Part shown: in pieces, positions 17,570 through 33,515 of the stretch
Numbering within the stretch: the stretch's first letter is position 1
How the letters are laid out: each line of letters begins with the position of its first letter
NCBI RefSeq assembly: GCF_000375425.1
Contig: NZ_AQXG01000008.1
Span: forward strand, 96,500 to 160,499
Length of the DNA: 64,000 bases
Direction: 5' to 3'
Origin: Gracilimonas tropica DSM 19535
GTDB lineage: Bacteria > Bacteroidota > Rhodothermia > Balneolales > Balneolaceae
Translations under genes and position numbers: made by a program
The notes under the pieces: generated by a model
The model's database searches: none
Seen by the model: only the letters and a program-made list of their open reading frames with translations
Told to the model about the DNA's origin: nothing

Positions 17570-17606
17570 TGTCCGATATCGAACACCAGGTGTTGGAATG
17601 TGAACA
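17570..17606 (+). promoter_or_regulatory. Paired enhancer palindromes, copy 1 (sigma-54 activator site)
   Basis: TGTCCGATATCGAACA (17570-17585) and TGTTGGAATGTGAACA (17591-17606) are two 16-bp imperfect palindromes with a 5-bp spacer, so their centres are 21 bp apart, two helical turns. The pair recurs at 21986 and 33410 with the same spacing and the same distance to a sigma-54 promoter. The pair midpoint is about 98 bp upstream of the predicted start. Confidence 0.85.
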
Positions 17607-17659
17607 ATAATTAGGAAAGAATCATCCTTATTTCACTTTTAACTGTGGTTGGCTTAGTT

Positions 17660-17675
17660 TGGCACGCATCTTGAA
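17660..17675 (+). promoter_or_regulatory. Sigma-54 promoter of the adaptor/ATPase operon
   Basis: TGGCACGCATCTTGAA matches the -24/-12 consensus: GG at 17661-17662, ten bases, then GA where GC is usual. The predicted start is near 17686, giving a 150-base leader before the adaptor gene at 17836. It begins exactly 90 bp after the first enhancer palindrome. Confidence 0.88.
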
Positions 17676-17733
17676 ATTACGGTACACAAAGTGAAGTTAT
17701 TCTTTCGCGTTTGAAACCAAAAATCACAATGAA

Positions 17734-17788
17734 CGTCAGATACTCACCAATTCAAACTAAAAGCTGAGCGCTAAATGCTGATGGCTTT
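17734..17788. repeat. Degenerate 7-mer-word palindrome in the adaptor leader
   Basis: A weakened family A copy: the right arm is AAAGCTGAGCGCTAAATGCT, followed by GATGGCTTTT. The left arm is eroded. It lies between the predicted sigma-54 start and the adaptor start codon. Confidence 0.45.
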
Positions 17789-17835
17789 TGTACTTGAAAT
17801 AATAACTAAGGATATAAATTATAGGCTTTACCCTT

Positions 17836-19092
17836 ATGGGAATGGATCGAAAAATTGAGAAGAAAACCTGGACCTTGAAACGGATCTTAATGATTGCCGC
17901 GATCGTGGCTTTTGTGGGACTCAGCATTTACGCGTTCTGGTTCATGGATGTGCGCTCCACTTTGAATGTTGAACGAGAAAAGATCACCATCTCAGAAGTT
18001 CGGGAAGACACTTTTCAGGAATTCATTCAGGTTACCGGTACAGTTCAACCCATACAAACCATTTACCTGGATGCCATCGAAGGCGGTGTGATTCAAAATG
18101 TGTATCTGGAATCCGGCACGATGGTCGAAAAAGGAGACACCATTCTCACCCTTACTAACTCAGGCCTGCAGCTTCAGGTAATGGGACAAACGAATGGCCT
18201 GTACGATCAGATCAACAATACTCGAAATTCTCGTTTGGCACTTGAACAAAATACCCTTCGATTGCAAGAACAACTGGCCAATGCCCGATCTCAAATGGAG
18301 ATCCTGAGGGGGCAATACGAACGCCAACAAAAACTGATTGAACGAGACCTTATTTCAGAAGAAGAATTCCAGACCACTAAAGAAAACTATGAATTTCAGA
18401 AGCAGCGGTACGAGTTAACCTATGAATCGTATGTCAAAGATTCGGTTCAAACCATACGACAAATGCAGCAGTTGGATCAATCAGAACAACGGATGTACCA
18501 AAACCTGGAGGCTGTTCAGCAAATTCTGGATAATCTCACAGTCAAAGCACCAATAACGGGACAGTTGAGTACGATCGAGCTCAATCAGGGACAGTCAATT
18601 TCATCCGGCGAGCGTATTGGTCAGGTCGATATTCTGGACAATTATAAAGTCCGTGTGGCGATTGATGAGTATCACCTTTCAAGAATTACACAAGGACTTC
18701 GTGGTTCTTTCAACTTTGATGGACAAACCCATGAGCTTGAGATCACCAAAATTTATCCGGTGATCAACAACGGGCAGTTTGAAGTGGATATGGAATTTGT
18801 GAATGAAGCACCGAATAATTTACGCAGGGGTCAGACGGTTCGAATTCGCCTTGAATTGGGTGAATCGGCCAGTGCGGTTCAAATTCCCCGGGGCGGATTT
18901 TACCAAACCACCGGCGGTAACTGGGTTTTTGTTGTGAATGATGACGAAGGCCGCGCCTACCGCAGAGAAATTAGATTAGGCCGGCAGAACCCCGAATATT
19001 TTGAAGTGCAATTTGGCCTGGAACCGGGCGAGAAAGTGATTACCTCGAGCTATGATACTTTCGGCGACAATGAAGTGCTTGTTTTAGAGTAG
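17836..19092 (+). CDS. HlyD/MacA-type periplasmic adaptor (efflux RND/ABC adaptor subunit)
   Basis: 418 residues. One N-terminal membrane helix (ILMIAAIVAFVGLSIYAFWF, about 17-37) is followed by a split lipoyl domain (VTGTVQPIQTIYLDAIEGG; later LTVKAPITGQLSTIELNQG). A long coiled-coil hairpin rich in Gln, Glu and Arg spans about 125-235, and beta-barrel and membrane-proximal domains run to the end (LEPGEKVITSSYDTFGD). Such adaptors bridge an inner-membrane ABC permease to an outer-membrane channel. Only one adaptor is encoded here for eight permeases. No TolC-like gene is visible in the window. The leader carries the sigma-54 promoter and enhancer pair. The ATPase gene follows after 144 bp. 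Confidence 0.9.
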   Translation: MGMDRKIEKKTWTLKRILMIAAIVAFVGLSIYAFWFMDVRSTLNVEREKITISEVREDTFQEFIQVTGTVQPIQTIYLDAIEGGVIQNVYLESGTMVEKGDTILTLTNSGLQLQVMGQTNGLYDQINNTRNSRLALEQNTLRLQEQLANARSQMEILRGQYERQQKLIERDLISEEEFQTTKENYEFQKQRYELTYESYVKDSVQTIRQMQQLDQSEQRMYQNLEAVQQILDNLTVKAPITGQLSTIELNQGQSISSGERIGQVDILDNYKVRVAIDEYHLSRITQGLRGSFNFDGQTHELEITKIYPVINNGQFEVDMEFVNEAPNNLRRGQTVRIRLELGESASAVQIPRGGFYQTTGGNWVFVVNDDEGRAYRREIRLGRQNPEYFEVQFGLEPGEKVITSSYDTFGDNEVLVLE

Positions 19093-19167
19093 CTGTCAGC
19101 CGTCAGTTCTCAGCTTTCAGTTTACCTCGAAAACACTGAAAGCTGAAGTCTGATAGCTGAAAGCTTT
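19091..19167. repeat. Palindromic 7-mer-word repeat, family A
   Basis: The left arm is AGCTGTC, AGCCGTC, AGTTCTC, AGCTTTC, a clean four-word heptamer array. The right arm is CTGAAAGCTGAAGTCTGATA followed by GCTGAAAGCTT. It overlaps the adaptor stop codon. Confidence 0.85.
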
Positions 19168-19236
19168 ATAGTTAGAGCATCTAACACCTAATTCCTTACA
19201 AAATTTTAAAAGACCATTAAACCAAATACTGAAACC

Positions 19237-19926
19237 ATGATTCAAACAAAAAATCTAAAAAAGGTCTACACAACTGAAGAAGTGGAAACCACTGCGTTAA
19301 GCAACGTGAATCTCGAAATTAATGAAGGGGAATTTGTAGCTATTATGGGTCCTTCGGGATGCGGGAAATCTACTCTACTTAATATCATGGGACTGCTCGA
19401 CAATCCCTCTGACGGCGAGTATCATTTCCTGGGGCATGAGATTTCCAATCACTCTGAGCGGGAACGAGCTCAGCTTCGCAAAGGAAACATCGGTTTCATC
19501 TTCCAGAGCTTTAACCTGATCGACGAGCTGACGGTATTCGAAAATGTGGAACTGCCGCTCCTTTATCTGGGTGTTGATTCTGCCGAGCGTAAAGAAAAAG
19601 TAGAAACCGCGCTCGACCGTATGGGTATGATGCACCGCCGTAATCACTTTCCTCAGCAGCTCTCCGGTGGACAGCAACAGCGTGTAGCCATTGCACGCGC
19701 CGTAGTAGCCAACGCCAAACTCATTCTTGCCGATGAGCCCACCGGTAACCTGGATTCCGATCATGGTGACGAAGTGATGAAGCTTTTGGCCGAACTCAAC
19801 GAAGCCGGAACAACGATCGTGATGGTAACCCACTCGCCTCACGATGCTGACTATGCCCGACGTGTCATCCACTTATTTGATGGTCATGTGGTGACTGAGA
19901 ACATGCAGGAAGGTTTTCATGTGTAA
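19237..19926 (+). CDS. MacB/LolD-type ABC ATPase (first of two)
   Basis: A 229-residue stand-alone ATPase. It has Walker [14 protein letters not shown]-loop [14 protein letters not shown], an intact signature [14 protein letters not shown], Walker [15 protein letters not shown], and the switch histidine in [10 protein letters not shown]. It belongs to the MacB/LolD/FtsE group that powers mechanotransmission permeases rather than importing substrate. It is in the adaptor operon and no permease gene is directly downstream; the nearest is at 22206. It is the likely engine for the permease array together with the ATPase at 40970. Confidence 0.93.
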
Positions 19927-19928
19927 TA

Positions 19929-20179: not shown

Positions 20180-21715
20180 ATGCCCAAAAAAAGAACCCTC
20201 GTTTTCTTTCTGACATCTCTTTTTATTTATTCAGGATGTCAACCGGTTAAGAACTTACTTAAGAAACCACAACCCAAAGAATTTCCCCAGGTTCAACGCG
20301 AATTCCGTGCAGCCTGGGTGGCTACAGTCGCTAATATAAACTGGCCAAGTGCTCCGGGACTCCCTGTTGAACAGCAGCAGGAAGAAGCGATCCAACTTTT
20401 GGACCTGCTTCAACGAAATAACTTCAATGCCGTGATTTTTCAGGTACGGCCACAAGCGGATGCACTGTATAAGAGTACCTTGGAACCTTGGTCTTATTAC
20501 CTGACCGGAGAGCAAGGAGTAGCTCCCGATCCGTATTATGATCCACTCAGTTTCTGGATTGAAGAAGCTCACAAACGTAACCTGGAACTTCATGTATGGC
20601 TGAATCCTTACCGGGCCCATCATACCACCGGAGGATTGATCTCCGAAAGTTCGGTCGTAAACACCAAAAGTGAACTTGTAAAAGAACTTGACAGCGGATA
20701 CTGGTGGTTCGACCCCAGTCTCAAAGCTACCCAGGATCATTCTCATGCCGTCGTGATGGATATCGTGAAACGCTACGATATTGATGGAGTCCATTTCGAT
20801 GATTACTTCTATCCCTACCCCTCTTACCACAACGGAGACTTCCCCGATGATGAAAGTTGGGAAGCGTATCAAAAATCGGGAGGAAAACTAAGCCGGGGAG
20901 ACTGGCGCCGAAAAGCCGTAGATGATTTTATTGAGCGGGTATATCGTTCCATCAAAGAAGAAAAGCCCTATGTTAGATTTGGTATCAGTCCCTTTGGAAT
21001 TTGGCGTCCCGGCCATCCAAACTCTATAGAAGGATTTGATCAATACGAGGAACTCTACGCCGATGCCAAAAAATGGTTAAACGAGGGCTGGGTAGATTAC
21101 TTTACTCCGCAGTTATATTGGCCGGTGAACCAGGTACCTCAAAGCTTCCCGGTATTATTGAATTGGTGGGATGAACAAAATTACAAAGACCGGGATGTAT
21201 GGCCCGGAATGAGTATTGGCCGGTTTCAGGGCAATCAACAAATTGATGAGGTGCTGAATCAAATCATGATCACACGAGGTATCACTCCCAAATCACCCGG
21301 AACGGTACACTGGAGTATTGAACCTTTGGTTGGAAATGACTCATTACAGCAAGCACTGCAAAACACTGTTTATGCGGAGCAGGCAGTGGTTCCCCCCATG
21401 GACTGGCTCTCAAACCGTGTACCTAAAAAACCGGAGGTGAATAGTACTTTATCTACAAATTATCTCGAGGTTTCCATCCAGAAAAAGCCCGAAGAAATCG
21501 ATCATTGGACTATTTATGCCAAATATGGGAATCGATGGAAGATCAGGAAAGTGAACAAATTTACGGATCATTTCAAAGTAACTGCATACATCCCTGTTTC
21601 ACCTTCAACTGAGGAATCCCCGCATTTTCAAAAGGTGCACATTCTTGATGAAGTATTTGTAACCTATCAAAATCGATATGGTTTGGAAAGTGAGGCGACT
21701 AAAATCACTTTTTGA
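20180..21715 (+). CDS. Lipoprotein of the glycosyl-hydrolase-like GHL10 (DUF187) family
   Basis: 511 residues with a lipoprotein signal (hydrophobic FFLTSLFIYSG, then lipid-accepting Cys20 in SGCQ). The body (about 40-410) is a TIM-barrel of the GHL10 family, with conserved segments REFRAAWVATVANINWPS, VIFQVRPQADALY, LELHVWLNPYRAHHT and GVHFDDYFYPYP. Carboxylates in the HFDDYFYP stretch are the best catalytic candidates. The C-terminal part (about 420-511) looks like a small beta domain. GHL10 proteins are thought to act on cell-wall or surface glycans; activity on peptidoglycan-linked sugars is known only for relatives. It lies inside the sigma-54 ABC region, so an envelope role fits. Confidence 0.85.
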   Translation: MPKKRTLVFFLTSLFIYSGCQPVKNLLKKPQPKEFPQVQREFRAAWVATVANINWPSAPGLPVEQQQEEAIQLLDLLQRNNFNAVIFQVRPQADALYKSTLEPWSYYLTGEQGVAPDPYYDPLSFWIEEAHKRNLELHVWLNPYRAHHTTGGLISESSVVNTKSELVKELDSGYWWFDPSLKATQDHSHAVVMDIVKRYDIDGVHFDDYFYPYPSYHNGDFPDDESWEAYQKSGGKLSRGDWRRKAVDDFIERVYRSIKEEKPYVRFGISPFGIWRPGHPNSIEGFDQYEELYADAKKWLNEGWVDYFTPQLYWPVNQVPQSFPVLLNWWDEQNYKDRDVWPGMSIGRFQGNQQIDEVLNQIMITRGITPKSPGTVHWSIEPLVGNDSLQQALQNTVYAEQAVVPPMDWLSNRVPKKPEVNSTLSTNYLEVSIQKKPEEIDHWTIYAKYGNRWKIRKVNKFTDHFKVTAYIPVSPSTEESPHFQKVHILDEVFVTYQNRYGLESEATKITF

Positions 21716-21753
21716 AAATGCGATTCTCTCAATCAGTGTTAAGTTTAATCATA

Positions 21754-21985: not shown

Positions 21986-22022
21986 TGTCCGCTTCTGAAC
22001 ACCGGGTGTAGTAAACCGAACA
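21986..22022 (+). promoter_or_regulatory. Paired enhancer palindromes, copy 2
   Basis: TGTCCGCTTCTGAACA (21986-22001), a 5-bp spacer, then TGTAGTAAACCGAACA (22007-22022). Layout and spacing are identical to copies 1 and 3. Confidence 0.85.
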
Positions 22023-22075: not shown

Positions 22076-22091
22076 TGGCACACTTATTGAC
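22076..22091 (+). promoter_or_regulatory. Sigma-54 promoter of the first permease operon
   Basis: TGGCACACTTATTGAC: GG at 22077-22078, ten bases, then GA at 22089-22090. It begins exactly 90 bp after the first enhancer palindrome. The predicted start is near 22102, 104 bases before the permease start. Confidence 0.88.
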
Positions 22092-22205: not shown

Positions 22206-24620
22206 ATGATTAAAAATTATCTGAAAATTGCTCTTCGTAATCTTAGAAAAAATAAAAGTCATACTATAATAAATATTGGCGGACTCTCTCTGGGTATTAT
22301 CTGTTCGCTTGTTATTTTTTTGGTTATCCAGTTTGACCTGAGTTTTGATAATTGGCATACCGACAGCCATCGGATTTATCGGGTGGTTACCGAGAATACT
22401 GATTATGGAATTTTAGATCATAACTCCGGCGGCCCCTATCCCAGAGCCGAAGCAATTCGTAATGATATCAATGGAATTGAATATGTTGCTTTAGTAAACA
22501 CTAATTTTAGATCAGCTGTGGTTTCTATCCCCGGAAGAAGCAGCACAGGAAAAAAATTCAAAGAAGAAGAGCTCGCTTTTGTTGACCCCGAATACTTCAA
22601 CATATTTACTTATAAATGGGTAGCCGGCGATCCTGAAACCGCTCTTCAAAAACCAAATACCGTTGTTTTAACAGAAGGCTTTGCAAACAAAATGTTTCAA
22701 AGTACCGATGTAATTGGCCATTCATTGACTGTTTTCACCGAGGACTTCGTGGATGTAGAAATTACCGGGATAGTAAAAGATCCTCCCAAAAACACCGATT
22801 TTCCATTTAAAATATTTGTAGCAAGTAACTCAAGATCCAGAGCGGGCTATACCTATGCAGAAACCGATACAGAATGGTCAAGCACTTCCAGCGGATACCA
22901 AAACTATGTAAAGTTAAAGCCCGGTATAACTCCTGAAGAAATAAACAAACAATTTGACCTGCTGATCACCAAGTATAGTGGGGAGGAAGTAGCAGCAGAT
23001 AAAAATTACTTTTTGCAACCTCTTTCGGACATTCATTTTGATGCCCGATTTGACAATTACTCCGGGCGCATCATAGAAAAGAAAACATTATTAGCGCTTG
23101 GTATTATTGGATTTTTGCTTCTACTAACAGCATGCATCAATTTTGTAAATTTAAACACAGCCATAGCTGTTCACCGATCAAAAGAAGTAGGACTTCGGAA
23201 AACGTTAGGTGGAACCAAAACTCAGCTTACGCTTCATTTTTTGGGTGAGACCGCACTTATTGCATTGATTTCTATCATTTTAGGAATTGGTATCACTGAG
23301 GTAGTATTACATGGTATTGAACCTATACTTGGTTTTACCCCTGTATTGAACCTGTTTTCAAACCCGGAATTAATACTCTTTTTAGGGCTTCTTTTTATTG
23401 TGATAACAATTGCGGCAGGGTGGTATCCGGCACGCCATCTTTCAAGTTATAGTCCTATTGATGCTATTCGAAATAAAATCAATGCAAGTTATGGACAGGG
23501 GCTTGTACTTCGTCGCAGCCTTATCATTATTCAATTTGCGATCACTCAAATCCTTGTGATTGGCACTGTTATAATTTCCAGCCAAATTAAATTCTTTCAG
23601 TCCAAAGATCTTGGATATAACAAAGAAGCTATTGTAGAAGTCACCATACCAAATGATGACGAACAAGTTCTGAACACCTTCAAGAATCAGCTTCTTAATG
23701 AATCCGGTATTCAAAATATAACCTTCTCTAACACCGGAACTACGAGTAATAATACCTGGTCGGCCAACTATCTGATCATGAAAGATAGTGTCCGGTTTGA
23801 AAATAACGCCCATGTCAAATTTGTAGATAACGATTTTGTAGAAACCTATGGTCTTACCATCTTAGCAGGCCGAGATCTTGCCCCCTCCGATACGGTGAAT
23901 GAATACCTCGTAAATGAAGCCTTTGCCAAGCAAGTTGGTTACGAAAATAATTACGAAAAACTCCTCGGAAAATATAATCGCTTTTACGGAATTGATGCTC
24001 CAATTGTAGGAGTGGTGAAAGACTTCAATACCCAATCGCTCCATACCGAACTTCCTCCTGTAGTGATTACAACAAGACGCAACTTCTACGTAGGTGCAAT
24101 ACAAATTAATCAGGAGCAAACTAAAGATGCCCTATCAGCTATTGAAGAAACCTATAAGCTGGCATTTCCTGATTATGTGTTTGAATATGAATTTCTGGAC
24201 GACAGCATCGCAAAAATGTATGAACATGAGCAAAGAACCGCTCGCATAATGGATGCTTTCACCTTTGTGGCCATTGTGATTGGATATCTTGGGTTATTTG
24301 GTTTGATTTCGTACATGGCTACGACACGAACAAAAGAAATCGGGGTACGAAAAGTTTTGGGTGCTACTCTCGCTGACATTTTGAAAATCTTCGGCATGGA
24401 GTTGACTTTATTAACCGGAATTTCATTTATCGTAGCAGCTCCAATTTCCTGGTACCTGATGCAAAAATGGCTTTCAGACTTTGCCTATCGTATTGAAATT
24501 GGAGCAGAAATATTTGCTATAGCTTTTTTAGGAACCATCGTACTGGCGATACTCACCGTTGGATATAAATCCTTCTCTGCGGCTATGCAAAACCCCGTGG
24601 ACAGTTTACGAAGTGAATGA
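22206..24620 (+). CDS. Double MacB-PCD/FtsX ABC permease, paralogue 1
   Basis: 804 residues with the layout shared by all eight paralogues. Helix 1 is about 20-42 (IINIGGLSLGIICSLVIFLV), followed by a periplasmic MacB-PCD domain (about 45-290) and three FtsX helices (about 292-420, with SKEVGLRKTLGG). Helix 5 (RRSLIIIQFAITQILVIG), a second periplasmic domain (about 470-690) and a final FtsX helix triplet (with TKEIGVRKVLGA) complete it, ending NPVDSLRSE. This is the mechanotransmission ABC fold duplicated in one chain, like the duplicated orphan permeases known from Acidobacteria. It has no ATPase of its own and must borrow one. It is first gene of the sigma-54 operon with start site near 22102. 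The gap to the next permease is 98 bp. Confidence 0.9.
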   Translation: MIKNYLKIALRNLRKNKSHTIINIGGLSLGIICSLVIFLVIQFDLSFDNWHTDSHRIYRVVTENTDYGILDHNSGGPYPRAEAIRNDINGIEYVALVNTNFRSAVVSIPGRSSTGKKFKEEELAFVDPEYFNIFTYKWVAGDPETALQKPNTVVLTEGFANKMFQSTDVIGHSLTVFTEDFVDVEITGIVKDPPKNTDFPFKIFVASNSRSRAGYTYAETDTEWSSTSSGYQNYVKLKPGITPEEINKQFDLLITKYSGEEVAADKNYFLQPLSDIHFDARFDNYSGRIIEKKTLLALGIIGFLLLLTACINFVNLNTAIAVHRSKEVGLRKTLGGTKTQLTLHFLGETALIALISIILGIGITEVVLHGIEPILGFTPVLNLFSNPELILFLGLLFIVITIAAGWYPARHLSSYSPIDAIRNKINASYGQGLVLRRSLIIIQFAITQILVIGTVIISSQIKFFQSKDLGYNKEAIVEVTIPNDDEQVLNTFKNQLLNESGIQNITFSNTGTTSNNTWSANYLIMKDSVRFENNAHVKFVDNDFVETYGLTILAGRDLAPSDTVNEYLVNEAFAKQVGYENNYEKLLGKYNRFYGIDAPIVGVVKDFNTQSLHTELPPVVITTRRNFYVGAIQINQEQTKDALSAIEETYKLAFPDYVFEYEFLDDSIAKMYEHEQRTARIMDAFTFVAIVIGYLGLFGLISYMATTRTKEIGVRKVLGATLADILKIFGMELTLLTGISFIVAAPISWYLMQKWLSDFAYRIEIGAEIFAIAFLGTIVLAILTVGYKSFSAAMQNPVDSLRSE

Positions 24621-24625
24621 TAAAT

Positions 24626-24713
24626 AGCGGTCAGAGCTCAGACTTCAGCTTTCAGTTTTTCAAGGTCGAAACAACTGAAAGCTGAGAGCTGACGACTGAA
24701 TGCTAAAAGCTTA
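24626..24713. repeat. Palindromic 7-mer-word repeat, family A (array subtype)
   Basis: The left arm is AGCGGTCAGAGCTCAGACTT, then CAGCTTTCAG. The right arm is AACTGAAAGCTGAGAGCTGA, ending GCTAAAAGCTTA. It is nearly the same as the elements at 27108 and 29667. Confidence 0.85.
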
Positions 24714-24718
24714 AAACA

Positions 24719-27103
24719 ATGCTTAAAAACTACTTTAAAATTGCCTGGAGAAATTTCAGGAGAAATAAATCGTATTCTATAATTAATGTTCTCGGACTTT
24801 CCATTGGTTTGGGCAGTTTGATTTTGATCTCCCTTTTTGTCAGTGATGAACTCAGCTATGATCGCTTTCATGAAAACAGCGACGAAATCTATTTTGTAGG
24901 AAGAGAAAGCACCTTCGGGGGGAATAGCAATAAGGGTATAAGCACTCCCTTCCCGGTAGGTCCTACTATGGAAAAAGAAATTCCCGAGGTGGAACATGCT
25001 GTCGTCACGCTATACAATGGCTCTGGAGATGTGAGTACTAATAGTGAAGATTTTTCAGAAGAAGACCGTGTTTTGCATGCTTCGGAAGACTTCTTCAACA
25101 TGTTCTCTTTTCCCTTAAAAGTTGGGGATGCGAAAACCGTTCTTGCTGATCCAAATTCTGTAGTGATCACTGAAGAAATAGCCGAAAAATACTTCGGGGA
25201 TGAAGATCCACTCGGAAAAACACTGCATATCAACCGATATGAAGAAGGAGAATACATTGTCACCGGTATTGCTGAAAACATGCAGCAAAACTCCTATTTA
25301 AGCTTTGACATCATTCCTTCTATCAAAAGCACTTCTTATTCCGAGTCTCATCGTGATTCCTGGGGCTCAAGCATGTTTAATACTTACATTCAGCTTCAGG
25401 ATGGGAAAACATGGAAAGATATTAAGCCAAAGGTAGCTGAGTTGGTCGAAAAAAATCTTGGCGAGGAATCCACGGTTTCCTTCTTTCAGATTCCATTGAC
25501 AGAGTTATACCTCTCTGAACATACCTCAAGCAGTGGGTTCCAGGGAAATAGTAAGTATGTGTATATTTTTTCTGCCATTGCGCTATTCATCCTGATCCTG
25601 GCATGTATCAATTATATGAACTTAGCAACGGCCAGGGCTATGCAGCGTTCCCGAGAAGTAGGGGTTAGAAAAGTGGTTGGAGCCGGCAAACCTCAGCTTG
25701 TTTTCCAATTCATTGGGGAGGCCGTATTAGTATCGGTATTCGCATTTATTGTGGGACTTTTTATTGCTGAAATTATGCTGCCTTTTTTCAATGACTTCAT
25801 CGGAAAAGATTTAGCACTGAACATTTCAGAAACCGGATCTCTATTATCTCTTCTATTCCTCATCTCAATTGGAGTTGGAGTTCTCTCCGGCAGCTACCCA
25901 GCCTTCTTTCTGTCTCGGTTCAAGCCTTCAACCGTATTGAAAACCACTTCTCATCGAAGTGTAAAAGGGGGTGGTTTTAGAAAGATTTTAGTTACTCTGC
26001 AGTTTGTGGTTTCAACAGCGCTGATTATCTGCACACTTATTGCATTCAACCAATTACAGTTTGTTCAAAACAAAGATCTTGGTTTCCAGGATGATCAGGT
26101 TATGTATATTCCCGCCCATCAGATCAGGGGTAATTTAGAAACCTTTAAAGAAATAGCACTGAATCATTCTTCGGTATTAGATGCTTCTGCTGCCACCGAT
26201 ATTCCGGGAAGATTTGGGATGCGAATGGGGCAAGCCTTCGATCCTGATAATCCAGATGATCCATTTTATGCCCATCAACTAAGAACCGATGCAGATTATG
26301 ATGATGTTTTGAATTTAGAGATGGCTGCAGGTAGATTTTTTGATAAAGACCGAACAACAGACCGAGACAATGCCCGTGTTATAAATGAAGCAATGGTTGA
26401 AAGATTGGGATGGGGTGAACCGGAAAATGCCGTCAATAGAATGATCGCGGATAGTTCCACAGTTGTAGTTGGTGTCGTAAAAGACTTTCATTTCAAATCA
26501 CTCCACGAAAAGATTGGACCGGTTTATATGCAAATGAAACCTTCGGAACCAGGTACTTATACTTCATACTCAATGTTAGTTCTGAAATTCAACCCAGGGC
26601 AGGTAGAATCCCTTATCTCTTACTTACAGGAAGAGTGGAAGAATCTTTGGCCTGAAGATCCGCTGGTTTATCATTTTCTGGATGAGAAATTTGCTGAACA
26701 GTATGCTACCGATCAAAAGCTTAGTCGCGCATTTTCAGCATTTGCGTTTGTTGCCATCTTCATTGCTTGTTTAGGATTGTTTGGTTTAGCGGCATTCTCC
26801 GCTCAAAAGCGCACCAAAGAAATCGGCATCCGAAAAGTCCTGGGAGCATCGGTTGCCAACATTGTCACCCTGCTCTCCAAAGATTTTGTGAAACTGGTGA
26901 TCCTCGGTTTTGTTATCGCCATTCCCATTGCCTGGTACGCCATGAACCAATGGCTGGCTGATTTTGCGTATCGCATCGAAATTGGTCCCGGAATATTTGC
27001 CCTGGCTGGAATCGCGGCTTTGGTGATCGCTTTGCTGACGGTTAGCTGGCAATCCATCAAAGCAGCCGTAGCAAACCCCGTAGATAGTTTAAGAAGTGAA
27101 TGA
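24719..27103 (+). CDS. Double MacB-PCD/FtsX ABC permease, paralogue 2
   Basis: 794 residues, starting MLKNYFKIAWRNFRRNKSYS. The first FtsX half has CINYMNLATARAMQRSREVG followed by VRKVVGAGKPQLVFQFIGE. The first periplasmic domain is acidic (DVSTNSEDFSEEDRVLHASE), unlike those of its neighbours, which may reflect a different ligand. The last 97 residues, from RTKEIGIRKVLGASVANIVT to the end, are identical to those of paralogue 3, and the DNA is also almost identical, although the remainders of the two proteins differ clearly. This points to gene conversion. No internal promoter was seen in the 98-bp gap upstream; co-transcription with paralogue 1 is likely. Confidence 0.9.
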   Translation: MLKNYFKIAWRNFRRNKSYSIINVLGLSIGLGSLILISLFVSDELSYDRFHENSDEIYFVGRESTFGGNSNKGISTPFPVGPTMEKEIPEVEHAVVTLYNGSGDVSTNSEDFSEEDRVLHASEDFFNMFSFPLKVGDAKTVLADPNSVVITEEIAEKYFGDEDPLGKTLHINRYEEGEYIVTGIAENMQQNSYLSFDIIPSIKSTSYSESHRDSWGSSMFNTYIQLQDGKTWKDIKPKVAELVEKNLGEESTVSFFQIPLTELYLSEHTSSSGFQGNSKYVYIFSAIALFILILACINYMNLATARAMQRSREVGVRKVVGAGKPQLVFQFIGEAVLVSVFAFIVGLFIAEIMLPFFNDFIGKDLALNISETGSLLSLLFLISIGVGVLSGSYPAFFLSRFKPSTVLKTTSHRSVKGGGFRKILVTLQFVVSTALIICTLIAFNQLQFVQNKDLGFQDDQVMYIPAHQIRGNLETFKEIALNHSSVLDASAATDIPGRFGMRMGQAFDPDNPDDPFYAHQLRTDADYDDVLNLEMAAGRFFDKDRTTDRDNARVINEAMVERLGWGEPENAVNRMIADSSTVVVGVVKDFHFKSLHEKIGPVYMQMKPSEPGTYTSYSMLVLKFNPGQVESLISYLQEEWKNLWPEDPLVYHFLDEKFAEQYATDQKLSRAFSAFAFVAIFIACLGLFGLAAFSAQKRTKEIGIRKVLGASVANIVTLLSKDFVKLVILGFVIAIPIAWYAMNQWLADFAYRIEIGPGIFALAGIAALVIALLTVSWQSIKAAVANPVDSLRSE

Positions 27104-27107
27104 TAAT

Positions 27108-27196
27108 AGCGGTCAGCGCTCAGAATTCAGCTTTCAGTTTTATCAAAATCGAAACTACTGAAAGCTGAGAGCTGAAGGCTGATCGCTAAAAGCTTA
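27108..27196. repeat. Palindromic 7-mer-word repeat, family A (array subtype)
   Basis: The left arm is AGCGGTCAGCGCTCAGAATT, then CAGCTTTCAG. The right arm is CTGAAAGCTGAGAGCTGAAG, then GCTGATCGCT. It follows the paralogue 2 stop with only a few bases between. Confidence 0.85.
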
Positions 27197-27201
27197 AAAC
27201 A

Positions 27202-29661
27202 ATGATTAAAAATTACCTGAAAATTGCTCTTCGAAATCTAAGAAAAAATAAAATTGATTCGGCCATAAGCATTGGGGGATTAGCGGTGGGTTTAGCCTGT
27301 TGTATCCTGCTGGTTTTTTATGTGCGGTTTGAATGGTCACACGACAATTTCCATGAAAATAAGGATCGGCTATACCGAATAACGGACCAAACTACCGCGA
27401 GGAATTCCGGGGAGATTCAAAAGAATTTAACCACCCCATACCCTCTTGCAGCAGTATTGGATTCAACTTTTCCTGAAATAGAGCGGGTAATGAACATTGC
27501 TTTAGGACCGGTACATATTTTAGATCGCGGCAAATTTCATCAAGTTGAGGTCACTTTTGCCGATCCCGGTTTTTTTGAAGCCTTCACCTTTCCCATTTTA
27601 TATGGAAATTCTACATCACCACTTGAAAATCCTGATCAACTGGTGCTTACCGAAGATGAAGCCCTTCATTATTTCGGAACCAAAAATGCCGTTGGAGAAA
27701 CCCTGTCGTTCAAGCTTCACGAAACGGAATATGATCTTACTGTAGCTGCTGTAGCCGAAAACCCACCGGCCAATTCCAGCCTTACCTTCAATATTGTCCT
27801 TCCCTTCGAAAACTATTTCAGATCGGTACCTAAAGAAAGAGTGGATACCTATCGCAATAGCTGGTATATCGGATTTGGAGAAACCTGGGTTCTGCTTAAT
27901 GATAAATCTTCTGCTAAGGACCTGACCTCAAAATTCCCGGAGTTATTGAGATCTCATTTAGGCAGTTTTGCGGAAACACAACAAATGGTAATGGGGCTTC
28001 AGCCACTCAATGGAGCCTACTTCGATCAAGAATATCGGTCTTATATTACCGGCAATACCAACATTTTATACTCATCAATTTTAGGTGGAATTGCGCTGGT
28101 TATTCTCATCATTGCAGGAATGAATTTCATGAGCCTTACCCTTAGTCGCGCTTCTCAGCGCAGTCATGAGATAGGGATTCGTAAGGCAGCAGGTGCGCAA
28201 CGGGGACAAGTCAGTTTTCAGTTATTTGGAGAAGTCTTTGTTACCTGTACCATTGCCATCCTCTTGGGGCTCATGTTAGCTGAACTCGCTTCCCCCTTCT
28301 TTCAAAACCTAACCGGCAAAGCCTTTGAAGTTTCTATCATCAGCGATCCGGTATTATGGTTCGCTTTGTTGGTCATAGTAGGCTTTATTACCATTATAAC
28401 AGGCGGATATCCTGCTTTCCAAATGGCCCGAAAGAACACGGCACGTATGTTTTCATCCCGCCGAAGTACCGAACGAATTCCTTTGTTTGTGAAAGGGTTG
28501 ATCATCGCACAATTCGCCCTTTCTATCGCCTTCCTCATTGCCACTTTTACCATGAACAGTCAGCTGAACTTTCTGCTTAATAAGGATTTGGGATTCGACT
28601 CCTCCAATGTGATCACCGTGGAAATACGAAATCAGGCTGAAGCCGCAAAGCAAGCAGAATTATTTGCCGATGAAGCTCAACGACTTCCCGGAGTAGAACA
28701 GGTAGCCAAAATTGGAAGTGCCTATCGGGGCGATCCAAGATATATGCAAGCAAAAATCGGATTTGGGATGGGAACCATGGGCTCAAGCACTAGTCTGGAA
28801 GGTTTTGATCATAGTATAACCTCTGAAATTATCGATGAGCATTATCTTGAAGTTATGGGAATGGACCTTTTGGAAGGTCGAAATTTCTCCCCGGATCGTC
28901 CGTCTGAATTAAAAAATGGAATTATCATCAATGAAAAATTTGCAGAAATCATGGGATGGGATAATCCGGTAGGACAAGTCATAAAAGATAAAGCCGAGGG
29001 CTGGACGCCTCCATTTGATGGCAAAGAAGTAATTGGTGTGGTAGATAATTTTCATTTTCGACCTCTTTATGAACAACTTCAACCCATTGCCCTTCAGCAT
29101 TTAGAAGGAGCTGGGTTTGATGTTCCCGGAACCATACTTATAAAATCCCGACCAGGAATGCTCAGCGAAACCGTCGATCAGCTTTCTGCTCTTTGGAATG
29201 AAGTATTACCTTCTGCTACCTTCAATTACAGTTTTTTAGATGAGCTGGTGGAAATGCAATATCAGGAAGAGCAACGCTGGCGGAATATCATCTGGTTCGC
29301 TTCCATTATGGCAGTTGCACTTGCCAGTTTTGGTTTATTCGGATTAGCTGCTTTAGCAGCCGAACGCAGAACTAAAGAAATCGGCATCCGAAAAGTCCTC
29401 GGGGCTTCGGTTGCCAACATTGTAACTCTGCTTTCCAAAGATTTTGTGAAACTGGTGATCCTCGGTTTTGTGATCGCCATTCCCATTGCCTGGTACGCCA
29501 TGAACCAATGGCTGGCTGATTTTGCGTATCGCATCGAAATTGGCCCCGGAATATTTGCCCTGGCTGGAATCGCGGCTTTGGTGATCGCTTTGCTGACGGT
29601 AAGCTGGCAATCCATCAAAGCAGCCGTAGCAAACCCCGTAGATAGTTTACGAAGTGAATGA
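27202..29661 (+). CDS. Double MacB-PCD/FtsX ABC permease, paralogue 3
   Basis: 819 residues, starting MIKNYLKIALRNLRKNKIDS, a start very close to that of paralogue 1 while the end is that of paralogue 2, so the gene looks like a mosaic. The middle is its own: GMNFMSLTLSRASQRSHEIG followed by IRKAAGAQRGQVSFQLFGE in the first FtsX unit, and a second periplasmic domain containing GMGTMGSSTSLEGFDHSITS. The C-terminal 97 residues equal those of paralogue 2. The reading frame is intact with no broken segments. It is third in the first sigma-54 operon. Confidence 0.9.
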   Translation: MIKNYLKIALRNLRKNKIDSAISIGGLAVGLACCILLVFYVRFEWSHDNFHENKDRLYRITDQTTARNSGEIQKNLTTPYPLAAVLDSTFPEIERVMNIALGPVHILDRGKFHQVEVTFADPGFFEAFTFPILYGNSTSPLENPDQLVLTEDEALHYFGTKNAVGETLSFKLHETEYDLTVAAVAENPPANSSLTFNIVLPFENYFRSVPKERVDTYRNSWYIGFGETWVLLNDKSSAKDLTSKFPELLRSHLGSFAETQQMVMGLQPLNGAYFDQEYRSYITGNTNILYSSILGGIALVILIIAGMNFMSLTLSRASQRSHEIGIRKAAGAQRGQVSFQLFGEVFVTCTIAILLGLMLAELASPFFQNLTGKAFEVSIISDPVLWFALLVIVGFITIITGGYPAFQMARKNTARMFSSRRSTERIPLFVKGLIIAQFALSIAFLIATFTMNSQLNFLLNKDLGFDSSNVITVEIRNQAEAAKQAELFADEAQRLPGVEQVAKIGSAYRGDPRYMQAKIGFGMGTMGSSTSLEGFDHSITSEIIDEHYLEVMGMDLLEGRNFSPDRPSELKNGIIINEKFAEIMGWDNPVGQVIKDKAEGWTPPFDGKEVIGVVDNFHFRPLYEQLQPIALQHLEGAGFDVPGTILIKSRPGMLSETVDQLSALWNEVLPSATFNYSFLDELVEMQYQEEQRWRNIIWFASIMAVALASFGLFGLAALAAERRTKEIGIRKVLGASVANIVTLLSKDFVKLVILGFVIAIPIAWYAMNQWLADFAYRIEIGPGIFALAGIAALVIALLTVSWQSIKAAVANPVDSLRSE

Positions 29662-29666
29662 TAAAT

Positions 29667-29748
29667 AGCGGTCAGCGCTCAGACTTCAGCTTTCAGTTTT
29701 ATCAAAATTGAAACTGCTGAAAGCTGACGCCTGATCGCTGACTGCTTG
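29667..29748. repeat. Palindromic 7-mer-word repeat, family A (array subtype)
   Basis: The left arm is AGCGGTCAGCGCTCAGACTT, then CAGCTTTCAG. The right arm is CTGAAAGCTGACGCCTGATC, then GCTGACTGCTT. It is followed directly by a separate promoter-like sequence at 29757. Confidence 0.85.
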
Positions 29749-29756
29749 AAAAAATT

Positions 29757-29785
29757 TGTAACGTTTTTTCAAACCTTTCGTCTAA
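29757..29785 (+). promoter_or_regulatory. ECF-sigma-like promoter before paralogue 4
   Basis: TGTAAC (29757-29762), a 16-bp spacer, then CGTCTAA (29779-29785). This matches the general -35 AAC / -10 CGTC pattern of ECF (SigW/RpoE-like) promoters. The predicted start is about 20-25 bases before the permease ATG at 29814. It is the only such site seen in the array. Confidence 0.6.
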
Positions 29786-29813
29786 CTCACGGAACATTAA
29801 ATCGGGTTAGACC

Positions 29814-32162
29814 ATGCTGAAAAATTATCTCAAAACTGCCTTTCGAAGCTTTAAGCGACACAAAAGTTCATTCCTTATTAATGTCATCGGCCTTTCTATC
29901 GGGATGGCCTGCAGTATCCTCATCCTGCTTTGGGTGATCGATGAGCTGAACTTTGATCGCTTCCATGCCGATGCCGACCGTATCTACCAAGTTATGGAGC
30001 ATCAAAATTATTCGGATAATATCATGACCACGATGTCCACGCCGGGCATCCTCGCTCCTGCGCTCAAGGAAGAAATTCCGGAATTTGAATACGCTGCCAC
30101 CTACACCTGGGATATGGAGTTTCTGTTCACCAAAGGCGATAAATCCCTGAAAGAACGAGGTCGTTATGCGCGACCGGATTTCTTCCACATCCTGGATGTA
30201 AAATTACTCCACGGCGACCGTGATAACCTGATCAGCTCTCCGCGAAGTGTAGCGATCTCCAAAGAACTGGCCATCAAATATTTTGGAACGGAAAATGCGG
30301 TGGGTGAGTCAATCACCATCAACAGTACCGACGTGCATACGGTAACCGGCGTCTTCGAGAAACTGCCCGAAAATTCAAGCTTCCGGTTTGATTACGTACT
30401 TCCTTTTGAGGACTGGCTGGAAGATAACGAGTGGGCTACGAACTGGGGCAATAACGGACCACAGACCATTGCCAAGTTGTATCCCGGCGTGGATGTGGAA
30501 GCACTGAACACCAAACTTAAAGATTTCATCAAAGAGCGAAATGAGGACTCAAATATCGACTTGTTCGTGTACCCAATGCCGGAATTGTACCTGAATGGTC
30601 AGTTTGAAGAAGGCAAAGTGGCCGGTGGCCGAATTGAATATGTTCGTCTTTTCACCATCGTAGCCATTTTTATTTTGATCATTGCCTGCATCAATTTCAT
30701 GAACCTGAGTACCGCCAAGGCGACCAAACGCGCTAAGGAAGTAGGCATTCGAAAATCCATTGGAGCCAGTCAGGGTTCGCTCATCGGACAATTTATCGGG
30801 GAGTCCATGATCATCACTTTCTTTTCGCTGTTGGTTTCGGTTTTCCTGGTGGAAATGAGTCTTCCGGTGTTCAACGATCTCACCGATAAAGCCATTAGCG
30901 TCAATTATGGCGATCCGACGCTGTTGCTCATGTTTCTGGGAACCGCTTTAGTCACCGGATTACTGGCCGGAAGTTATCCTGCGTTCTATCTCTCCTCCTT
31001 TGAAGCCGTGAAAACGCTGAAAGGAAACCTGAAGATCTCCGGCAGTGAAGCTTTCGCCCGAAAAGGACTGGTCGTTTTTCAGTTCACACTTTCCGTAATC
31101 CTGATCATTTCTACCATCGTGGTCTATCAGCAGATTCAATTCACCCAAAACAAAAACCTGGGGTATCAAAAAGAAAACCTGGTGACCTTTGTGGTGGAAG
31201 GCGACATTTCCAACAATTGGAACACCTTTAAGCAGCAGATCAAGGATATTCCCGGAGTGGTGAATGTCTCACGTGCCGGATCCAGCTTTTTAGGACGAAA
31301 TTCCAACACTTCCGGACTCGAATGGCCAAACAAAGATCCCGAAACAACTATCCTTTTTGAGAATGTAACTTCTGATTACGGTCTCATCGAAACTATGGGA
31401 TTTGACGTACTTTCAGGCCGAAGCTTTTCTGAAGAATTTGGAGCCGATACCGCTCGCATTGTCATCAATGAAGCAGCCGCAAATGTCATGGGATTTGAGG
31501 ATCCGGTTGGAAAATTTATCACGCTTTGGGGGGATGAAACCGAGATCATTGGCCTGGTTAAAGACTTCAACTTCCAGAATCTACGCTATGGGATCGAGCC
31601 GCTCTTTTTCCGACTGGATGATTTTGGATGGAAAGCTTTTGTTCGTATTGAATCCCAAAATATCCAGCAAACCATTGCTGAGATCGAAAACAAATACAAG
31701 GAATTCAACCCTACCTATCCTTTTGCTTACGAATTTATGGATGAACAATACGCTGCCTTATATCGCAGCGAGCAGCGAATCGGGGATCTGGCCAAATACT
31801 TTGCGATCTTTGCCGTGATCATCTCCTGCCTCGGCTTATTTGGTCTTTCAGCTTTCACGGCAGAACAGCGCGCCAAAGAAATTGGCGTTCGAAAAGTGCT
31901 CGGTGCTACCGTGCAAAATCTGGTGCTTCATCTTACCAAAGACTTCACCAAGCTGGTCCTTATTGCCATCCTTATTGCCATTCCGGTTTCCTGGTGGATG
32001 ATGAGTCAGTGGCTCTCCGATTTTGCCTTCAACTCCGGACTGAACTGGTGGATCTTTGCGGCTTCCGGATTTTTGGCCGTAGTCATTGCCTGGCTGACCG
32101 TGAGCTGGCAATCCATCAAAGCTGCGTTGGTGAATCCGGTTCAGAGCTTAAAGAGTGAATAG
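29814..32162 (+). CDS. Double MacB-PCD/FtsX ABC permease, paralogue 4 (divergent)
   Basis: 782 residues, the shortest of the set, starting MLKNYLKTAFRSFKRHKSSF. It stands apart from its neighbours: it ends NPVQSLKSE rather than NPVDSLRSE, the terminal helices differ (KDFTKLVLIAILIAIPVSWW), and the codon third positions look richer in G and C. The first FtsX unit reads VGIRKSIGASQGSLIGQFIG. An ECF-type promoter lies 30 bp upstream and the gap (152 bp) is wider than those between paralogues 1-3. It may therefore be transcribed both from the sigma-54 start and on its own. Confidence 0.9.
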   Translation: MLKNYLKTAFRSFKRHKSSFLINVIGLSIGMACSILILLWVIDELNFDRFHADADRIYQVMEHQNYSDNIMTTMSTPGILAPALKEEIPEFEYAATYTWDMEFLFTKGDKSLKERGRYARPDFFHILDVKLLHGDRDNLISSPRSVAISKELAIKYFGTENAVGESITINSTDVHTVTGVFEKLPENSSFRFDYVLPFEDWLEDNEWATNWGNNGPQTIAKLYPGVDVEALNTKLKDFIKERNEDSNIDLFVYPMPELYLNGQFEEGKVAGGRIEYVRLFTIVAIFILIIACINFMNLSTAKATKRAKEVGIRKSIGASQGSLIGQFIGESMIITFFSLLVSVFLVEMSLPVFNDLTDKAISVNYGDPTLLLMFLGTALVTGLLAGSYPAFYLSSFEAVKTLKGNLKISGSEAFARKGLVVFQFTLSVILIISTIVVYQQIQFTQNKNLGYQKENLVTFVVEGDISNNWNTFKQQIKDIPGVVNVSRAGSSFLGRNSNTSGLEWPNKDPETTILFENVTSDYGLIETMGFDVLSGRSFSEEFGADTARIVINEAAANVMGFEDPVGKFITLWGDETEIIGLVKDFNFQNLRYGIEPLFFRLDDFGWKAFVRIESQNIQQTIAEIENKYKEFNPTYPFAYEFMDEQYAALYRSEQRIGDLAKYFAIFAVIISCLGLFGLSAFTAEQRAKEIGVRKVLGATVQNLVLHLTKDFTKLVLIAILIAIPVSWWMMSQWLSDFAFNSGLNWWIFAASGFLAVVIAWLTVSWQSIKAALVNPVQSLKSE

Positions 32163-32265
32163 CGTATAGTGCATGGCCGTTGATTTTCACAACAAACTAT
32201 GCGCTCTGCATTGGCACCACAAAAATTGCTATGTTGTATATCATGTTTGATAAAGCTCAGTTTGG

Positions 32266-33405
32266 ATGAAAGATCTCACATTTACTATTTCCGGCGGAGG
32301 AATCGCAGGATTAACTACCGCCATTGCTTTAAAAAGAATCGGCATCAAAGCGAAGATCGTAGAGGCGGCCCCTGAGTTTAAACCGGTTGGAGCAGGCATC
32401 ACCCTCGCCCCAAATGCAATCAAAGCGTTTCAGCATCTCGGCATAAAACAAGAAATCGAGGAAGCTTCAAACCTGATTTCCGGTTTAGAGATTTGTGATT
32501 TTAAGGGAAAAACGATCACCCAACAGCCCTCAGAATTCGATGAATCAACAGCTATTCATGCCATCCATCGGGGGAATTTACATGAGGTTCTGCTCTCTCA
32601 CCTAAAAGATCATTCCATTGTTTTGGGGAAGCGAACCACCGGATTCAACAAAAAAGCAGACCAAATAGAGCTCACTTTTGATGATGGAAGTACACATCTC
32701 ACAGATCTTCTAATCGCCTCCGATGGCATCCATTCCCCCATTCGAAAACAACTTTTACCGGATTCTGAGTTGCGGTATGCCGGATATACCTGCTGGCGGG
32801 GCATCTCTGCAAATAACTTCGGAATTGAAAAAGCAACCGAGAGCTGGGGTCACGGAAAACGATTTGGGATCGTGCCACTTCCTGATAATCAAATTTACTG
32901 GTTTGCTTGCCTGAATGCGCCTGTAAATGATCCTCAAATGAAAAAATATGGGGTTCACGAACTGAGGCAGGTTTTTGAGGATTTTCATACTCCAATTCCA
33001 GACCTGATCGGCTCAACCCCAGACAGTCAAATTCTTTGGAATGATATTTATGACCTGAAACCGATCAGGAATTTTGCGTTTGGGGATGTGGTATTGATTG
33101 GGGATGCGGCCCATGCCACAACACCCAACATGGGTCAAGGGGCTTGTCAGGCCATAGAAGATGCAGTGATCTTGGCAGAATGTTTGAAGCGTTCATCAAC
33201 CGCTGCTCAAGCCTTTCAATTTTTTGAACAACATCGGAAAAAACGAGCCCAATCCATTGTGAACCGATCATGGAAAATGGGCAAGATGGCTCAAATGGAC
33301 AACCGGTTCCTTTCTACCCTCAGAAATGGATTAATGCGAGCTATTCCGGCTTCTGTTCTAAAAAGTCAGCTAAAGTCGATTTACGATATTGATTTCACCC
33401 TTTGA
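32266..33405 (+). CDS. FAD-dependent aromatic-ring-type monooxygenase
   Basis: 379 residues of the PHBH-type class A flavin monooxygenase fold. The dinucleotide motif ISGGGIAGLTTAIAL is at the N-terminus. The DG motif is ASDGIHSPIRKQL (about 146-158), and the FAD ribityl GD motif is VVLIGDAAHATTPNMGQGAC (about 275-295). These enzymes use NAD(P)H and oxygen to hydroxylate small organic molecules, sometimes detoxifying antibiotics. The substrate cannot be told. No signal peptide, so cytosolic. It is inserted between permease genes 4 and 5, ends 4 bp before the third enhancer pair, and may be read from the first permease operon. Confidence 0.9.
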   Translation: MKDLTFTISGGGIAGLTTAIALKRIGIKAKIVEAAPEFKPVGAGITLAPNAIKAFQHLGIKQEIEEASNLISGLEICDFKGKTITQQPSEFDESTAIHAIHRGNLHEVLLSHLKDHSIVLGKRTTGFNKKADQIELTFDDGSTHLTDLLIASDGIHSPIRKQLLPDSELRYAGYTCWRGISANNFGIEKATESWGHGKRFGIVPLPDNQIYWFACLNAPVNDPQMKKYGVHELRQVFEDFHTPIPDLIGSTPDSQILWNDIYDLKPIRNFAFGDVVLIGDAAHATTPNMGQGACQAIEDAVILAECLKRSSTAAQAFQFFEQHRKKRAQSIVNRSWKMGKMAQMDNRFLSTLRNGLMRAIPASVLKSQLKSIYDIDFTL

Positions 33406-33409
33406 CCAC

Positions 33410-33446
33410 TGTCCGTTTTCGAACACCCGATGTGTAATTTCGAACA
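33410..33446 (+). promoter_or_regulatory. Paired enhancer palindromes, copy 3
   Basis: TGTCCGTTTTCGAACA (33410-33425), a 5-bp spacer, then TGTGTAATTTCGAACA (33431-33446). It lies immediately after the monooxygenase stop codon. Confidence 0.87.
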
Positions 33447-33499
33447 TCATTGGGTTCATAATCGTCTTTTTAAAACCTTTTGAGCTTTCTTTTCCACTT

Positions 33500-33515
33500 T
33501 GGCACATTTGTTGAA
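33500..33515 (+). promoter_or_regulatory. Sigma-54 promoter of the second permease operon
   Basis: TGGCACATTTGTTGAA: GG at 33501-33502, ten bases, GA at 33513-33514. It begins exactly 90 bp after the first enhancer palindrome. The predicted start is near 33526, giving a 72-base leader. Confidence 0.88.

Follow-up and report, generated by a model that had tools for sequence, protein, structure and literature searches.

In the Bce-type detoxification modules of the Firmicutes, FtsX-type ABC permeases are encoded beside a histidine kinase whose two membrane helices are joined by hardly any loop; the regulator is of the OmpR type and, by definition, kinase and permease associate in a sensor complex. 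The locus described here lies in a 64,000-nt stretch of the Gracilimonas tropica DSM 19535 genome (hereafter, the window) and resembles these modules in its loop-less two-helix kinase next to FtsX-type ABC permeases. It differs from them in its regulator, which is NtrC-type and not OmpR-type, in its sigma-54-type promoters and in its periplasmic adaptor. A second likeness is to the darobactin exporter DarBCDE, as the models that fit the adaptor and the ATPase best are DarC and DarD. However, all Dar model scores are under the curated cut-offs (adaptor, 225 of 450; ATPase, 281 of 375; the two permeases scanned, 159 and 109 of 700), and an identification of the locus as a DarBCDE exporter was hence rejected.

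The regulator shares its domain order with the PEP-CTERM-box regulator (TIGR02915), AtoC, NtrC and ZraR, which give its best NCBIfam scores in that sequence; it differs from them in its GAFTDA loop. No curated NCBIfam identity was obtained for it among the best 25 of 90 matched models, all below cut-off. Orthology with these four or with GlrR was rejected on the scores and because E. coli NtrC, AtoC, ZraR and GlrR fall outside the branch of the module-linked regulators. The E. coli system QseF/GlrR is nevertheless comparable: a two-component sigma-54 activator of envelope functions (promoters glmY and rpoE) that has several TGT...ACA sites ahead of a sigma-54 promoter. Their consensus is TGTN12ACA, and three lie at glmY (PMC6075780). 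Here, in contrast, the sites are TGTN10ACA with CG...CG inside and form pairs with a 21-bp step, for which two distances from the promoter are favoured, and the targets are exporter genes.

A 2025 promoter survey reports that COG0577/FtsX-like permeases are controlled by sigma-54, with an enrichment in Bacteroidia, gammaproteobacteria and Opitutia (PMC12316311). In the accessible part of its text, the terms palindrome, upstream activating and bEBP are absent, and enhancer binding protein occurs in a reference only. Beyond that survey, as far as its accessible part goes, no described control was found for long rows of MacB/FtsX paralogues. A literature search on sigma-54 with MacB/FtsX/HlyD regulators, or on the operator letters, likewise returned nothing, which leaves room for a record in print.

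Three Modules and the Genes Around Them

The palindrome TGTCCG-N4-YGAACA starts at 17570, 21986 and 33410 in the window. In all three modules, a second 16-bp palindrome starts at +21, leaving 5 bp between the two, and TGGCAC-N5-TTGA starts at +90 from the first base (17660, 22076 and 33500). On the forward strand, operator pair 1 (17570..17606; palindromes 17570-17585 and 17591-17606) is followed by the -24/-12 element TGGCACGCATCTTGA (17660..17674), pair 2 (21986..22022; 21986-22001 and 22007-22022) by TGGCACACTTATTGA (22076..22090), and pair 3 (33410..33446; 33410-33425 and 33431-33446) by TGGCACATTTGTTGA (33500..33514). Pattern search and shuffles sustain all six features, and orthologous loci add to this for pair 1. 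The preliminary description had given exactly this geometry and considered its triple occurrence unlikely by chance; both statements hold, as the full 105-base pattern occurs three times in the window but never in 100 dinucleotide shuffles. A genome-wide search, which it had suggested, returned the paired palindrome at the same three places of the 3.83-Mb assembly (backward control, 0). The one-mismatch form gave these places again, one of them also on the other strand (control, 0), and no fourth module place was found in the assembly with the patterns tried.

All three elements have GG at -24 and G at -12 with ten bases between, as in sigma-54 promoters. In each of them, the -12 G is followed by A and not C (TTGA, not TTGC), which counts against a sigma-54 reading. 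The predicted +1 positions, 17686, 22102 and 33526, are arithmetic, counted from the -24 GG.

Left of module 1, on the reverse strand, lie a sensor histidine kinase (14544..15911; HATPase_c E 1.2e-22, HisKA below cut-off) and the proposed activator, an NtrC-type response regulator (16036..17409) with receiver (PF00072), sigma-54 AAA+ (PF00158) and Fis-type HTH (PF02954) domains. The two N-terminal membrane helices of the kinase, recognized by hydropathy, are joined by a loop of ~5 residues (by eye), without a periplasmic domain. Downstream of module 1, on the forward strand, are an HlyD/RND-type periplasmic adaptor (17836..19092) and a MacB/LolD/DarD-like ABC ATPase (19237..19926), both assigned by Pfam and NCBIfam, and a GHL10 glycosyl-hydrolase-like protein (20180..21715; Pfam), the last gene before module 2 and a presumed member of the operon. 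Module 2 precedes four MacB_PCD/FtsX permease genes (22206..32162: 22206-24620, 24719-27103, 27202-29661 and 29814-32162; DNA repeats D1-D5) and, at the operon end, an FAD-dependent monooxygenase-like protein (32266..33405; Pfam, NCBIfam). Module 3 precedes three permease genes (33598..40876: 33598-35979, 36073-38424 and 38489-40876) and a second ABC ATPase (40970..41653; Pfam). Pfam covered three of the seven permease ORFs (first, second and fifth), the other four being judged by size and DNA repeats. The gene calls made earlier for the activator and the adaptor, ATPase and permease operons were correct according to ORFs and Pfam.

A sigma-54-like promoter, TGGTATGGAATTGGC (17501..17515, reverse strand), points towards the regulator gene and lies 91 bp from the distal edge of operator pair 1. 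It is present at 8 or 9 of 9 letters in 26 of 29 orthologous loci (500 shuffles: mean 0.5, largest 3), with a motif, lacking the C of TGGCA, that was picked after inspection of the data. The promoter is absent in G010, G018 and G044, and the regulator gene is more than 500 bp away in G024 and G026.

Conservation in the Family and in Distant Bacteria

Among 91 genomes of the Balneolaceae, 29 have an activator orthologue (identity at least 63%), and the module adjoins it in every case. The step between palindromes is always 21 and the offset is 90 (20 modules), 89 (5), 88 (2) or 91 (2). TTGGCA[CT]N5TTG fits all 29 loci, each with an adaptor homologue downstream (window included), and additional modules are located upstream of permease homologues in G029, G039 and G044. 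Identity amounts to 82% and 69% for the palindromes and 77% for the promoter, vs. 33% for the spacer and downstream DNA (91 pairs of 14 representatives, ungapped). In the order, the strict pattern occurs in 17 of 129 genomes, right beside the activator orthologue in 15 of them. In the phylum, it occurs in 35 of 393 genomes (23 of 49 in the family, 12 of 344 outside; backward control, 0 among the matches listed). Since related genomes are included, these counts are not independent. Sequences, fixed distances, conservation and linkage to regulator and exporter genes are direct observations.

A scan of named genomes gave at least 119 stretches with a module, of which 81 modules were read. Among the matches listed, the offset is 89-92 in 38, 98-102 in 36 and elsewhere in 7; the two groups are about one helical turn apart. 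Phase coherence is 0.70, vs. at most 0.40 in 2000 uniform draws, and nearly equal for periods of 9.5-12. In columns left free by the pattern, in the 81 modules listed, G occupies the -12 place in 65 and the full TTG is present in 40, and the interior of palindrome 2 reads C (84%), G (65%), G (96%). An IHF consensus was seen within the spacer of 15 of these 81, in an uncontrolled count. Operators outside the strict pattern occur in two plasmid-borne relatives counted as linked (L082 and L084); in the plasmid collection searched for distant regulators, the altered operators are those of Parabacteroides and Phocaeicola. In the Pseudoalteromonas operator L083, the first palindrome is perfect and the second less exact.

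The first homologue within 1 kb downstream of the 81 modules listed is an adaptor in 32, a permease in 14, an ATPase in 3 and the regulator in 2; 30 have none. Beside 21 of the 81, a window-gene homologue on the expected strand is absent altogether, which counts against the explanation preferred here; some GC-rich modules (L088, L097) may be chance matches. A check of 24 distant modules for downstream ORFs yielded 23 proteins (one module had no ORF), from which 10 were chosen; in 3 of the 24, a window homologue follows further downstream after all. Among the proteins left out of this choice, by eye, L102, L135 and L103 resemble outer-membrane efflux proteins, and L154 resembles L131.

A regulator homologue is present within the stretch for 36 of the 81 modules listed. 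In a tree, a branch with 100/100 support separates the 48 module-linked regulators from 13 others (nine paralogues and E. coli NtrC, AtoC, ZraR and GlrR). The 48 rows comprise 17 of the 29 family orthologues, three plasmid-borne relatives and 28 distant regulators; the latter are the 29 longer than 400 residues less row 31, which was omitted because its C-terminal end is unusual. Linked regulators from Bacteroidota and Pseudomonadota have the recognition-helix pattern LG[LI][TS]R..LYR[RK] in common: it occurs in 28 of the 29 orthologues and in 27 of 28 distant regulators of full length, but in none of nine paralogues. GAFTGA is the sigma-54 contact loop of NtrC-type activators. All 29 orthologues read GAFTDA instead, which counts against the sigma-54 reading; among the matches listed at 36 distant loci, the loop is GAFTDA in 28, GAFTGA in 5, GSFTNA in 1 and not found in 2. 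The kinase shows two helices with a very short loop in 35 of 36 rows, the window's own included (hydropathy, by eye); the exception has a cut start.

A Proposed Two-Way Switch and Its Alternatives

The kinase-regulator pair (14544-17409) probably runs a sigma-54 regulon of ABC-exporter genes, a reading to which we give a probability of about 0.87. The preliminary description had proposed that the activator drives the adaptor, ATPase and permease operons as one response. Comparative evidence supports this, since operator and promoter are conserved at fixed geometry and the intervening DNA is not, the module tracks the activator, and the distant downstream genes are exporter parts. New relative to that description are the divergent promoter, the existence of two favoured distances, the broad distribution and the loop-less kinase. 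We infer binding, RpoN dependence, autoactivation and a signal as follows. The phosphorylated regulator would bind the two palindromes, two helical turns apart, and its AAA+ ring would assemble on the operator pair. DNA looping would let the ring open RpoN polymerase at the -24/-12 promoter, 90 bp from the first base of the pair. Pair 1, between divergent operons, would act both ways, on the adaptor-ATPase operon and on the regulator-kinase operon, the latter by way of a weaker -24 element of the GGTA type at a distance of 91 bp, so that the system would amplify itself. Pairs 2 and 3 would place the permease operons under the same switch.

The palindromes could instead serve a repressor or an enhancer-binding protein other than 16036-17409, whose link to them would then be one of gene order only. 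The genome has three further strong sigma-54 activator matches, and 45 of the 81 distant modules listed have no regulator homologue in their stretch, but many of these stretches are too short to span the regulator gene. As each of the 17 genomes of the order that contain the pattern belongs to the 29 with an activator orthologue, and the linked regulators share one branch and one recognition-helix pattern, this explanation is unlikely. It is still less probable that the pair acts on a promoter of the sigma-70 family, with TGGCAC-N5-TTGA as part of another promoter type. Such a promoter would agree with the fact that no Sigma54_DBD match, and hence no recognisable RpoN, was found in this assembly. 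However, the GG-N10-G spacing is kept, the further activators are themselves of the sigma-54 type, and RpoN is present in 10/10 congeners and in 27 of 28 other genomes with an activator orthologue, the exception (G034) being 82% complete. The missing RpoN is probably an assembly gap because all ten congeners have it and the usual rpoN neighbour gene is missing here too; the 14 kb around a congener rpoN have no DNA match in the assembly, which is uninformative alone.

Modules 2 and 3 are followed by paralogous permease genes, as expected if the three modules were recent copies of one segment, in which case the 90 bp would reflect duplication and not function. By eye, though, the three 53-bp spacers show no resemblance to one another, and the motif-only conservation between genera, together with a distance that other phyla retain or shift by about one turn, reduces this explanation to a negligible probability.

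In distantly related bacteria, too, the arrangement adjoins a regulator of this kind, and the module therefore has the look of an old, common on-switch of exporter genes. More tentatively, and with the odds rather against it, it may be an ancient detoxification switch of Gram-negative bacteria that ranges from Bacteroidota to alpha- and gammaproteobacteria. Its loop-less kinase would read the state of the MacB/FtsX exporter inside the membrane, like Bce kinases, and its GAFTDA activator, on one two-way operator pair, would make more exporter and more of itself, with two favoured pair-promoter distances about one helical turn apart. MacB/FtsX exporter genes form a long paralogous row here, seven in number. 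The operator-promoter signature would assign such rows to one regulator family and predict which paralogues act together, and any genome can be searched for it. As a natural data set, the two favoured distances bear on the way in which an AAA+ ring on an enhancer reaches its polymerase.

Modules and genes in the window

A pattern search of the window confirmed the three modules that the preliminary description had placed at 17570, 21986 and 33410. In each, TGTCCG-N4-YGAACA is followed, after a 5-base gap, by TGT-N7-YGAACA, and TGGCAC-N5-TTGA starts 90 bases from the first base. The whole pattern has three matches in the window and none in 100 shuffles; an assembly-wide search for the operator pair likewise returned, with the patterns tried, only these three places.

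To the left of module 1, a histidine kinase (14544-15911) and the NtrC-type response regulator (16036-17409) are encoded leftward. Rightward, module 1 leads into genes for an HlyD-type adaptor, an ABC ATPase and a GHL10 protein. Module 2 stands before four MacB/FtsX permease genes and one for an FAD monooxygenase, and module 3 before three more permease genes and that of a second ATPase (permeases 3, 4, 6 and 7 were assigned from size and repeats). From spacing and direction, we infer that each row of genes is one operon. The FAD monooxygenase-like gene (32266-33405) closes a permease operon; among its best 25 NCBIfam models, only NF005243, a hypothetical protein, exceeds the cut-off.

Many intergenic gaps among the exporter genes are occupied by imperfect inverted repeats of the type TCAGCTTTCAGT...ACTGAAAGCTGA (15916-15948, 19090-19165, 19927-20008, 24625-24705, 27107-27194, 29666-29746 and 38429-38500). 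A second repeat family, GTGTTACGGTGTTA/TAACACCGTAACAC, is found at 35980-36071 and 40880-40958. Directly behind the kinase gene, a Whalefall-1 RNA (RF01762) scores above the gathering threshold (14415-14470, plus strand).

No RpoN match was obtained in the window's assembly (98.8% complete, 48 contigs). RpoN is present in 10/10 congeners and in 27 of the 28 other genomes with a regulator orthologue. In a congener, rpoN has a neighbour that also adjoins it in 8/10 further loci; this gene, too, is absent from the window's assembly. The simplest account of the missing RpoN is an assembly gap.

Conservation and a putative regulator-side promoter in the Balneolaceae

A protein search of 91 family genomes separated, by a clear gap, 29 regulator orthologues (at least 63% identity, the window's own included) from paralogues at about 40%. 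Up to 20 kb, mainly on the exporter side, was examined at the 28 other loci. The operator pair with its 21-bp step and TTGGCA at 88-91 are present at 29/29 orthologue loci, each with an adaptor homologue behind the module. In ungapped comparisons of 91 pairs of 14 representatives, identity is 82% and 69% for the palindromes, 77% for the promoter and 33% for the spacer and downstream DNA.

A looser pattern was positive in 17 of the 129 genomes of the order, all within the 29 with an orthologue. The match adjoins the orthologue in 15 and lies elsewhere in two (G066, G092). Extra modules precede permease homologues in three genomes (G029, G039, G044), and a permease homologue lies 1.5 kb behind module L080 of G026. 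In module L079 of G066 (position 18150, offset 89), the palindromes are identical, both TGTTTGTTTTCGAACA, and no window homologue follows within the stretch examined.

On the other strand lies a putative second promoter, TGGTATGGAATTGGC, which faces the regulator gene and begins 91 bases away from the pair's far edge. Sites matching at least 8/9 consensus letters occur on this side at 26/29 loci, against a mean of 0.5 and a maximum of 3 in 500 shuffles, a figure that is too favourable because the motif was defined after looking at the data. The distances are 79 in one locus, 88-91 in 12 and 96-101 in 13 (G006, with sites at 88 and 103, was counted at 88). The regulator gene is more than 500 bp away in two genomes, G024 and G026, where another small frame may intervene.

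Relatives outside the family

When the named genome collection was scanned for the pair plus a TGCCA lying 45-70 bases away, at least 119 stretches matched; 80 of them are listed, many from draft MAGs. Those listed are mostly from Bacteroidota; record titles place others in Pseudomonadota (Kordiimonas, Halioglobus, Woeseiaceae and others), Chlorobiota, Aminicenantes and a few further groups. Across the phylum, 35 of 393 genomes matched this same pattern, 23/49 in the family and 12/344 outside, so the strict form is uncommon there; the backward control gave no match among the matches listed. Looser relatives are present outside the family. At a Parabacteroides locus (L082, 19874-19983), where the regulator is divergent from a permease, an altered operator (TGTACG...CGCACA) precedes TGGCAT-N5-TTGA.

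The offsets of the 81 modules among the matches listed are uneven: 89-92 in 38, 98-102 in 36 and elsewhere (82-107) in seven. Phase coherence is 0.70 (at most 0.40 in uniform draws) but stays at 0.65-0.70 for all periods between 9.5 and 12, and so shows two groups separated by about 10 bases, not an exact pitch. In columns left free by the pattern, the -12 place has G in 65/81 modules and the full TTG in 40/81, and the interior of the second palindrome reads C (84%), G (65%) and G (96%). In the 1 kb behind each module, the nearest window homologue is an adaptor for 32 modules, a permease for 14, an ATPase for three and the regulator for two; 30 modules have none. Some of the listed genomes share a genus or contribute more than one module, so the counts from these scans are not independent.

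A regulator homologue lies within the stretch examined for 36 of these modules, divergently in 31. In a midpoint-rooted tree, 48 linked regulators (28 distant, 17 family orthologues and three plasmid-borne relatives) fall on one side of a branch with support 100/100, although long branches meet in this tree (tool warning), the separating one included; on the other side are nine paralogues and E. coli NtrC, AtoC, ZraR and GlrR. The recognition-helix pattern LG[LI][TS]R..LYR[RK] occurs in 28/29 orthologues, 27/28 full-length distant regulators, 3/3 plasmid-borne relatives and 0/9 paralogues. The sigma-54-contacting loop is GAFTDA in 29/29 orthologues and at 28/36 distant loci (GAFTGA at five, GSFTNA at one, not found at two). 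It is GAFTGA in eight paralogues, GAYTGA in the ninth and GAFTGA in all four E. coli proteins.

At five distant loci, it is the TGGCA promoter itself that lies toward the regulator: two of these promoters are 70 and 73 bp from the regulator start, the other three about 1.4 kb from it. In 11 of the 31 divergent loci, the pair lies 2-56 bases from the regulator start, without room for a second promoter, an arrangement that would suit repression instead. Self-activation of the regulator is therefore proposed for the Balneolaceae and not for all relatives.

Targets, earlier work and the kinase

Ten hand-chosen proteins that follow modules lacking an immediate window homologue were scanned. They comprise two outer-membrane efflux proteins, an S46 peptidase, a PD40 protein, a DUF4097, a DUF5916 and a DUF2807 protein, a TonB-receptor plug, a weak TPR match and one protein that matched nothing. 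The set suggests envelope functions, though it is small and may include chance matches. Modules L162, L131, L154, L128 and L123, in other Bacteroidota and Aminicenantes, precede S46 peptidase, PD40 (L154 assigned by eye), DUF5916 and DUF4097 proteins, as though the switch also served further envelope proteins. On contig C9 of the window's own genome (91813-121044), two TGGCAC-N5-TTGCA sites lie about 30 kb or less from another strong sigma-54 activator, perhaps a second sigma-54 regulon.

A 2025 promoter-matrix survey (PMC12316311) places FtsX-like permeases under sigma-54 control, calling this first evidence, with COG0577 enriched in Bacteroidia, gammaproteobacteria and Opitutia. In its text, the terms palindrome, upstream activating and bEBP are absent, and enhancer binding protein occurs solely in a reference. 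Neither the operator letters nor regulators of this kind turned up in literature searches. The sigma-54 link is thus already known in outline. Within the literature searched, the regulator group seems to be new, as do its operator pair, the two distances, the divergent promoter and the loop-less kinase.

The kinase has two helices separated by a loop of about five residues, and there is no space for a periplasmic sensor domain. Strongly hydrophobic stretches lie within the first ~65 residues in 35/36 kinase rows (own included; two helices by eye), in those from Bacteroidota and from Pseudomonadota alike. In Bce systems, kinases of such build pair with FtsX-type ABC permeases. Our hypothesis is that the exporters may report to the kinase.
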